DNA of 25,221 nt from a bacterium (GTDB lineage: Bacteria > Lindowbacteria > 2-12-FULL-62-27), in assembly GCA_016202645.1 (NCBI GenBank), contig JACQOF010000126.1, positions 1 through 25,221 on the forward strand. The letters run 5' to 3'. The notes below the pieces were generated by a model, which was not told the origin of the DNA, did not search any database, and saw only the letters and a program-made list of their open reading frames with translations. Positions 1,896-4,676 of this stretch are shown one piece after another (the stretch's first letter is position 1; every line of letters starts with the position of its first letter). The position numbers and the translations under genes are program-made.

Positions 1896-2807
1896 TTACT
1901 TCGCCCGGACAATCTCCAAATTTCGGCGGGCGGATATCGTGTAGGGGAATTCCTCCAGAAGAGAAACCAGTTCCTGCTCGGCCTCTTCCGTTCGCCCGGC
2001 GTAAAACAGGACGCCCGCCAGATTCTGTCGGAACACGGCGGTGGATCCGGTAGTGCGGAGTTTGAGACCAATCTCGGCGGCACGGTCGTAGTCCTTCTCT
2101 TTCAGGAATCTCATGAACAGCGCAGCCGTCGGAGTTTCCACCGGCGTGACAGACAGCGCCGGTGGGACTGGAGATTCCCGCGGGGATGGCGCCATCTGCG
2201 GCTCCGTCAAAGATTCCGGCAGCACGCCGGGCTTCAGCGGCGGCGGCAGGGACGGCGGCGCCAAGGACGGCGCCGCCCCCGCCCCCGGCGGAGCCATGGA
2301 TGGCGGAGCCCCCAGCGGGGGCGGCGGCAGAGCGGGCGGCGGCAGAGAAAGAGCCGCATCATCGTCCAGCTCCAAGGCATCCTCAAAAGCAAGCTCGCCG
2401 GATGGAACTGGGACAGGCTCAGGTTTCGGTGGGGCTGGGGGAACGGCGGCGGCAACAGGCGCCGGCGCGGCCGGCTCCTCAGCGACCTCCTCAACTTCGT
2501 CCTCCAGAACAGCCGCGGGTATTGCCGGTTCGTCTTCTTCCGTAAACATTTCTTCGAGTTCGTCCACCCCCTCATCCCTGTGGCCCGGCGGGATGGGCGC
2601 CGCCAGAAGTTCCTCGTCCGGAATTTCGGGCGGCGCCACGGATGGCGCCGCCTCCAGCGGGGGCGCCGCCTCCGGCGGGGGCGTCGCCGCCGGCTGAGAC
2701 GCCGCGCCCGGCGTAGCAGGCGCCTCCAGATCCTTTTCCAGATCGCTCAGGAGAGCGTCCAGATTCGACAGGTCCAACTCGCCTTCAGATTTTTCCGGCA
2801 CGGTCAT
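1896..2807 (-). CDS. Pro/Ala/Glu-rich protein with C-terminal TPR-like region
   Basis: The 303-residue product begins MTVPEKSEGELDLSNLDALL, a short acidic amphipathic segment. About 170 residues of low-complexity Pro/Ala/Glu sequence follow (residues about 30-215). The C-terminal ~80 residues are well behaved: FMRFLKEKDYDRAAEIGLKL ... FRQNLAGVLFYAGRTEEAEQ ... EEFPYTISARRNLEIVRAK, which looks like two TPR-type helical hairpins. No signal peptide is visible, so it is probably cytoplasmic, perhaps a scaffold joining partners through its N-terminal peptide. It starts 6 nt after the upstream membrane protein. An AGGGGGG tract abuts the ATG; the GTG at codon 3 has better spacing and could be the real start. 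Part of the low-complexity DNA matches the neighbour gene's minisatellite in another frame (positions 2260-2320). Function unknown. Confidence 0.75.
   Translation of the reverse strand: MTVPEKSEGELDLSNLDALLSDLEKDLEAPATPGAASQPAATPPPEAAPPLEAAPSVAPPEIPDEELLAAPIPPGHRDEGVDELEEMFTEEDEPAIPAAVLEDEVEEVAEEPAAPAPVAAAVPPAPPKPEPVPVPSGELAFEDALELDDDAALSLPPPALPPPPLGAPPSMAPPGAGAAPSLAPPSLPPPLKPGVLPESLTEPQMAPSPRESPVPPALSVTPVETPTAALFMRFLKEKDYDRAAEIGLKLRTTGSTAVFRQNLAGVLFYAGRTEEAEQELVSLLEEFPYTISARRNLEIVRAK
2260..2320 (-). repeat. Related GC-rich repeat units in the Pro/Ala-rich gene
   Basis: This 61-bp stretch aligns without gaps to 3291-3351 in the upstream gene (55 of 61 positions identical by my count). A further related copy lies at about 2635-2663. 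Here the units encode APPSMAPPGAGAAPSLAPP rather than the [11 protein letters not shown] seen in the neighbour, because the frame differs. Confidence 0.8.
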
Positions 2808-2813
2808 CCCCCC

Positions 2814-4676
2814 TTACACGGACGCCGACGGGATCGCCCCCAAAATGGCCTCGATGTCCTCCCGAGATACCGACTCATCAAGTTTCAATAGATCATCCAC
2901 GCTTGCGCCCCGCAAGTCTTCGATCCGGCGATATCCGCCGTCGAACCACCGGTGGATCGAATCCCGCGCGACCTTGCGGATCATCCGAACATCCGTGACG
3001 AAGACTTCCCGGTAATCGTCACTGCCGTAGTTCAGCTTTTCGCGGGGAACTTTTCTGAGATTCGCGATCAGGTCTGAAGCCGCCTCGGGTTCCATCCCCG
3101 CTCGGTCGGTCAACTCCTGAATTTTGCTCTGAAGCAGGAGGTCCGGCCGGTGCCAGCCGGCTGAATAGACCTGCGCGGCCAGGCGCGGCTTGATGCCGGC
3201 CATCCGGCAGAGTTTGACGATAAACATCTTTCGCGCAAAAACGGGATCCATATCGGCGCCATGGATGGCGCCGTCCCCGCCCCCAGCGAAGCCATGGATG
3301 GCGCCGTCCCCGCCCCCAGCGAAGCCATGGATGGCGGAGCCTCCAGCGGGGACGGCAGGGACGGCAGGAACGGCTGGGACGGCGGGAACGGCTGGCGCGG
3401 CAGGGGCAGCCGAGGATGATTGCTCATACCGCCCCTCCGCATTCAGAATGACCCACCCGCCCCGCAGGCGGTCGACCCGGGACGGCCACTCGGACAGGAC
3501 CAGATCCAACGCGGATTCGTAGGTCTCCAAGTTGGGCGCCTCATTGGAAATCGCGAAGGCCGAGATCGTCTGGATCGGCACCTGTTTGCCCTGCCCAAGC
3601 TCGTAGAGCCGCAGGACCGACTCGTTGAAAAGTCCCTGGGCGCGGGGGAGGACCATGCGGAATTCCTTCGGCGCGAGCGGGGAGACAAAAAAGAAATCCT
3701 CCGTAAAGGCGATCGGCGACCTATCTCCGATCGCGGCCTTCAGCGCTGTCGCCGCGATTTTCTTGATGACGCTCCGGTTCGCGCGCCCGAAAGCCTTGAT
3801 GTATTCCTTGGCATAATTCACCTTGAAAAAAACGATCACCTGCTCGTCCGAAGCCTCCCGGGAAGTCTCATAGAGTTTGTGGGCTGTCGTGTCCGTTTCG
3901 AGGCCGGTGTCAAAGTCGAGAAAGCTGTCGGTTGAGAATCCCGAGTCCTCCGACCGGGTGCGAAGGACGTCTTCAACGGTCCGAACCAGGGGGGAAAACT
4001 CCCCGAAAGAATCCGGGTCGATGGCGTGTTTCCGGCGGCCCGAGTAGGCTTTCAGCAGATATTTGAGCGGAAGATTGATTTCCGAGTAAATGATGAATCC
4101 GAAGAGGCCCAGGATCAGCAAAAAGGAGATCGCCAGATACGCGCCGTGCTGGACCAGCGCGTCGTGGATATAGGCGGGCCGGGCCTCATCCATGGCCGCC
4201 AGAAACACGATGAATTCGGGAGCGTCGGAGGAGGGAAGAGGATAAAAAAATCTGAATTGGGTCTCGTTCATCGGCCGGAGCCGGGAAAAATCCTCGGGCT
4301 TGAACGCTTCCGTCGACAGAAGCGGCATATACGGAAGTTTTTCCATCGTGACGTTGTGGACAAGCTGAAACGTCTGATGCTCCGGAGATTTTCGGTAGAG
4401 GCCCGCCTGCGTCAGGCGGATCGTGCCGCCCGACTGATTGAATCCCGTCATCAGGTGGCGGCCTTCCTGCTCAAACCTGAGGGAAAGATCGCTCGGCAAT
4501 GGAAGGTTCAGCCGGACCTGAATGCAGATTTGCAGGAGCTGTTCCTTGATCTGCTGGTCCAGCAGGCGGTTCAATCGGACCTGATCGCTCCGGAGAATCA
4601 AAAATCCGGCGGGCAAAAAGGCCAGAACGCCGACCAGAACAAGTTTGAGATAAATCGATCCCACCAGGCGTTTCAT
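2814..4676 (-). CDS. Membrane protein, degenerate GGDEF-like region plus helix-hairpin-helix modules
   Basis: The 620-residue product has a membrane segment at about residues 9-29, an extracytoplasmic sensor-like domain to about 175, and a second membrane segment at about 178-197. The following cytoplasmic region (about 270-400) includes [20 protein letters not shown], reminiscent of the first half of a diguanylate cyclase fold; the GGDEF signature itself is absent (TEDFFF-like sequence nearby), so catalysis is not expected. A Val-Pro-Ala and [11 protein letters not shown] repeat linker follows (about 425-475). The C-terminus carries [20 protein letters not shown] and [20 protein letters not shown], which look like helix-hairpin-helix modules of the NusA/DUF4332 kind. 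The ATG overlaps the eno stop by 4 nt (ATGA), implying coupling to enolase. The domain calls are by eye; the GGDEF link is the weaker one. Confidence 0.75.
3258..3410 (-). repeat. 33-bp minisatellite plus 9-bp repeats in the membrane-protein gene
   Basis: Two identical 33-bp units (3258-3290, 3291-3323) and a third partial, diverged one (3324-3351) encode [11 protein letters not shown] repeats. They are followed (about 3349-3410) by a 9-bp-period tract encoding Val-Pro-Ala repeats. All periods are multiples of 3, so copy-number change would not break the frame. The same DNA unit, in a different frame, occurs in the next gene. Confidence 0.85.

Follow-up and report, generated by a model that had tools for sequence, protein, structure and literature searches.

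A putatively mobile 69-nt palindromic element carried in frame by unrelated protein genes of an uncultured bacterial lineage

Two stretches of DNA in neighboring genes of the window (the whole 25,221-nt stretch that was analyzed) very likely represent a 69-nt palindromic element that is mobile but non-autonomous and is proposed to copy itself, probably via a folded single strand. This reading is based on the dispersal of a structured non-coding unit that has recent copies; the mobility was inferred from sequence comparison, and the source genome is an incomplete MAG (G000; 2.9 Mb, 82% complete). G001 and G002 are genomes of a second and a third genus of the same family.

Results

A repeat shared by two neighboring genes

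The window contains two neighboring genes on the minus strand, both of which exist in the frames given by the first-pass annotation (Table 1). Positions 3291-3351 and 2260-2320 within these genes were identical at 55 of 61 bases without a gap. The best ungapped score between the two genes was 45, compared with a mean of 11.7 (sd 1.1, maximum 15) in 60 codon-block shuffles that kept the local composition. The repeat reported in the first-pass annotation is therefore real, and equally good matches in shuffled coding sequence, which the annotation had named as a refuting outcome, were not obtained. The full extent of the match was 69 nt (copies A and B in Table 1). Because the two copies are offset by 1031 bp (2 mod 3), the corresponding segments of the 620-aa and 303-aa proteins (PPPLGAPPSMAPPGAGAAPSLAPPS in the latter) represent one DNA read in different frames, giving different peptides; the similarity thus lies at the DNA level, as had been proposed, and the accompanying statement that every frame is open was true of both copies (six of six frames in each). 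The element is antisense in both hosts, and host gene 1 translates copy A in frame -2 as PPLGAPPSMAPPGAGAAPSLAP, while host gene 2 translates copy B in frame -1. In the model searches, copy A was matched at G000:C104:2252-2329 (65.7 bits, E 1.7e-8) and copy B at 3283-3360 (72.9 bits, E 8.7e-10). A further sequence-model match at 2586-2669 (E 9.3e-5) underlies the partial or degenerate copy that host gene 1 probably contains. No match was found in a Pfam search with the host gene 1 protein.

Table 1. Features of the two host genes and of the element copies within them
Feature	Position in the window	Strand	Basis
Host gene 1: 303-aa protein with a Pro/Ala-rich interdomain region	1896..2807	-	
Host gene 2: membrane protein of 620 aa, C-terminus weakly matching HHH_5	2814..4676	-	
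Element copy A, 69 nt, in the Pro/Ala-rich gene	2255..2323	+	Alignment and structure
Copy A: hairpin 1; arm; hairpin 2; complementary arm	~2257-2274; 2275-2282; ~2291-2306; 2315-2322		
Element copy B, 69 nt, in the membrane/HHH-like protein gene	3286..3354	+	Alignment and structure
Copy B: hairpin 1; arm; hairpin 2; complementary arm	~3288-3305; 3306-3313; ~3322-3337; 3346-3353		
33-bp unit duplicating the left half of copy B in tandem	3253..3285	+	Tandem repeat
Probable copy, partial or degenerate, in the Pro/Ala-rich gene (hairpin 1 followed by a right end)	~2629..2668	+	Sequence-model match and repeat family D1
9/18-bp tandem coding a Val/Pro/Ala linker, adjoining copy B	3349..3405	+	

Structure of the element

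The unit was exactly 69 nt long in all 21 aligned copies. It consists of hairpin 1, an arm (GTCCCCGC), hairpin 2, and the complementary arm (GCGGGGAC), and an apex of the form CA-NGGA-YG is common to the two hairpins. Two subfamilies were distinguished by a compensating +1/-1 indel, hairpin 1 being one base longer and hairpin 2 one base shorter in one subfamily than in the other. The stem positions covaried between copies: 22 cells showed changes on both sides, compared with 8.5 in shuffles and 0-4 in slid controls, and the covariation score was 0.167 as against 0.075 in shuffles, where the structure was read from the same sequences as were counted and many copies are close relatives. In the named structure 88% of the cells were paired, in contrast to 27-55% when it was slid. 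The single-strand folds of individual copies had z values of -0.15 to -4.1 relative to shuffled sequence and were often only modestly better. In unbiased samples of 392 kb of G000 and 400 kb of G001, GGA was the commonest loop trinucleotide among hairpins centered on CA-Nxyz-TG (3 of 6 and 7 of 18, respectively). Neither terminal inverted repeats at the ends of the 21 copies nor a target-site duplication of at least 4 nt in their flanks was found; the best shared flank was 3 nt, in 5 of the 21 copies, and the flanks are GC-rich.

Distribution among genomes

In a search of 60 genomes, matches were obtained only in G000 and G001. In G000, copies were present on other contigs as well; a sequence model, followed by a structured covariance model built from the 21 copies, gave 7 strong copies on six contigs of this genome, 17 strong copies in G001, and none in G002 or in 57 more distant genomes. 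Copy A was closest to a copy on contig C109 (91%), as against 87% identity to its neighbor, copy B, which indicates that the element was dispersed and not converted locally. Some copies in G001 were 97-100% identical, two of them lying in one gene, and these near-identical sequences suggest recent movement. A plasmid search gave no match; among viral contigs the longer element pattern gave no match, and the hairpin patterns gave single matches. One candidate locus (L339) was set aside as a probable chance match: it had a weak model score (E 0.06-1), and the two longest frames at the site, of 836 and 900 aa, lie on opposite strands.

Host genes, reading frames, and empty sites

Twenty of the 21 aligned copies lay in frame inside protein genes, and all 20 hosts read through the 69-nt unit. 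By Pfam, the named hosts in G000, beside the two window genes, were ATP synthase gamma (atpG), a PAS/HisKA sensor kinase, a LysM-TPR protein, and a TPR protein. Those in G001 were ribosomal protein L13 (rplM; C-terminus), PilM, an Ig-like protein, a UvrD/AddA-like helicase-nuclease (two copies), a sigma-54 activator (NtrC-type), an amidase, a hydrogenase maturation protease (C-terminus), a CBM48 protein (two copies), a secretin (GspD), a CHASE-PAS protein, SAICAR synthetase (N-terminus), and a GH5-like protein. The two copies in the AddA-like gene (L075:1345-1421 and 3763-3839) were identical, and the second adjoins the nuclease GKIDLL motif.

Copies occurred in both orientations relative to their host genes. 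The frames used relative to the element were -2 (10 copies), +0 (6), -1 (3), and +2 (1), and the two Arg-rich frames were unused in all 20. The probability of avoiding two of six equally likely frames in 20 copies is about 3e-4, a value that is indicative only, since some frames have stops in the G001 subfamily and the copies are related. With the same reservation, the avoidance fits selection filtering on the encoded peptide.

The clearest empty site was that of atpG: its insert (GSPAGGSAVHGSAEGGDGAVRGAA) has no counterpart in the G001 or G002 orthologue, in other bacteria, or in PDB homologues, and the solved homologues align on both sides of it. Both inserts of the AddA-like gene in G001 were missing or much shorter in G002 and G000. 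The orthologues of host gene 1 in G001 and G002 likewise had no insert. Those of host gene 2 were found at G001:C43:128037-129821 and G002:C60:7218-9068; the linker that holds copy B varies in all three genera, and this empty site is therefore less clean.

Proposed mode of spread and alternative explanations

In the proposed mechanism, one strand of the element would fold into hairpin 1, the arm, hairpin 2, and the complementary arm, and the element would place copies of itself elsewhere, probably through the action of some enzyme on the folded single strand. Insertion into a gene would add about 23 residues and leave the host unbroken, because 69 is divisible by three and four to six frames are free of stops. 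Selection would then retain those insertions whose frame is acceptable and whose position, in a loop, linker, or terminus, is tolerated. Local spread by minisatellite slippage is not part of this reading; copy B gained its 33-bp internal duplication later.

The enzyme might specifically be one of the Y1/HUH (IS200/IS605- or RAYT-like) transposases that these genomes encode, although this appears rather unlikely. Enzymes of this type act on folded single-strand hairpins (PMC8266576), Y1_Tnp loci numbered 10 in G000 and 8 in G001, and one of them (L119) adjoins a related hairpin at a tRNA-Arg gene. However, this was the only exception among the 12 of 24 Y1 loci inspected, the others having no flanking copy; the conserved GTAG tag was missing; and G002 has six Y1 genes yet no strong copy of the element.

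That the unit is a conserved functional module held by selection, such as a structured regulatory RNA or a protein linker domain, is improbable. Stem covariation and constant length would agree with such a module, but the element occurs in unrelated genes, in both orientations, and in four frames, so that no common peptide or transcript strand is kept; moreover, orthologues are without it, and an Rfam search of the window gave no match at E<=1.

The first-pass annotation had interpreted the repeat as a GC-rich minisatellite that spreads or converts between the two neighboring genes. A perfect 33-bp tandem array does exist (3258-3336, 2.4 copies, 100% match), and the two window copies are only 1 kb apart and 87% identical. 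This tandem, however, arose secondarily, by duplication of the element's left half within the copy at 3253-3354, and is confined to that copy; the other copies are single 69-nt units, and no head-to-tail array was found as the spreading unit. The element itself is a structured, non-tandem palindrome with covarying stems. On the basis of the genome-wide distribution, which extends to another genus, and of the pairwise identities, by which copy A is nearest to a copy on another contig, the minisatellite and gene-conversion interpretation was rejected as very improbable. Chance similarity arising from Pro/Ala/Gly codon bias in GC-rich linkers has a negligible probability, because, although both copies do sit in low-complexity linkers, it is ruled out by the codon shuffles, the same DNA recurs in atpG and other annotated genes, and the orthologues carry these linkers but no element, a pattern that fits insertion rather than the separate origin by codon bias that the annotation had named as its second refuting outcome.

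Related sequences at tRNA genes, in a phage-like gene, and in Marinobacter

Eight tRNA loci of G000 were inspected (L081, L084, L087, L088, L089, L091, L007, and L119). Related hairpin elements were present beside all eight, and such two-hairpin elements with CA-NGGA-TG apices abut or overlap many tRNA genes (Arg, Thr/Cys, Val, Gly, and Leu) in this genome. At L081 the element overlaps the 5' end of a tRNA-Arg gene, and its hairpin 1 uses the acceptor strand. A rule by which tRNA-adjacent stems copy the tRNA end was clear only at this locus and failed in most, and it was dropped.

An apparent phage terminase gene, identified as such by eye, carries an in-frame element-like stretch at the same site in two genera (G001:C17:9120-9189 and G002:C128:1084-1150; L077 and L045). 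Its presence in both could reflect either an old insertion or carriage by phage.

When named genomes were scanned for the hairpin-2 core, at least 119 stretches were obtained, nearly all of them in Marinobacter. The intergenic repeat of Marinobacter shares with the element the exact 23-nt core GCGGAGCCATGGATGGCGGAGCC and a second hairpin, ACANGGAYGT. In contrast to the element, its core is flanked by perfect arms that are specific to the locus, with a median length of 23 bp and 64 different arms among 84 copies, and the 69-nt model gave no significant full-length match to it. Marinobacter genomes contain many copies of it, and at the loci L162-L241 (e.g. L165:4982-5004) the core GTGCGGAGCCATGGATGGCGGAGCC...AGCGT lies at the tip of perfect palindromes whose arms differ between nearly all loci. 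No description of this repeat was found in the literature searched.

It is conceivable, but doubtful, that mobile two-hairpin DNAs with a CA-NGGA-TG apex form an undescribed class that spans phyla and includes the element. Such a class would colonize protein genes in frame and tRNA gene ends in the present lineage, have a related member in a prophage terminase gene in two genera, occur in Marinobacter as the tip of long locus-specific palindromes, and be moved by a dedicated enzyme recognizing the apex.

Two other repeats were noted in G000. In the G000 sample (L122-L141), perfect hairpins of at least 8 bp with GAAA/TTTC loops were strikingly common (27 of 48, strand-counted), whereas they were rare in the G001 sample; these are possibly another repeat or terminator family. 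L009 (G000:C1:16615-16680) contains a 54-bp direct repeat around CCATGGATGGCG, which is distinct from the palindromic element.

Discussion

In-frame mobile palindromes in conserved genes are best known from Rickettsia, whose members are intracellular and have reduced genomes. The element described here lies in core genes, namely those of ATP synthase gamma, ribosomal protein L13, a DNA-repair helicase-nuclease, and SAICAR synthetase, in an uncultured lineage with genomes of 3-4 Mb, and this suggests that protein-lengthening DNA is not confined to endosymbionts. With copies this similar, present-day mobility and the search for the enzyme behind it are open to direct tests.

Several known systems resemble the element. 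GTAG/CGTC REPs, including intragenic REP dimers, are dispersed hairpin repeats, some of which lie inside genes and code 20-30 amino acids (PMC3733652). In the 21 copies, however, no terminal unpaired GTAG was found at either end or in the flanks, and the arrangement of CGTC REPs (unpaired CGTC at the terminus, a stem of 8-9 bp, and a loop of 4-5 nt) was also absent, CGTC occurring only inside the paired arm. The bacterial MITEs ERIC/RU-1, RU-2, RU-3, and Correia/NEMIS are likewise small non-autonomous repeats, with ORFs fused in frame to genes (PMC2229807), but they differ from the element, which has neither terminal inverted repeats nor target-site duplications in the 21 copies.

The closest likeness is to the Rickettsia Palindromic Elements (RPEs) and the Wolbachia WPEs, which are also short palindromes and sit in frame in numerous unrelated protein genes, some of them conserved. 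In Rickettsia, RPEs occur in frame in protein genes and also in RNA genes (tmRNA and RNase P RNA), and one RPE-bearing enzyme has been proved active (PMC2229807). The element shares with them many unrelated hosts (20 intragenic copies), an open frame, and a self-complementary structure, a likeness of kind. RPEs are given as 105-146 bp long with 12-bp terminal inverted repeats (PMC2229807), whereas the element is 69 nt long and GC-rich, has a hairpin-arm-hairpin-arm layout with NGGA apices, and is located outside the Rickettsiales. Because it behaves like these palindromes but lacks the REP tags and differs in size and layout, it is regarded as a new variant among the known in-frame intragenic palindromes, and the best-supported assignment is to a new family of mobile palindromes within genes, similar in behavior to the RPEs.
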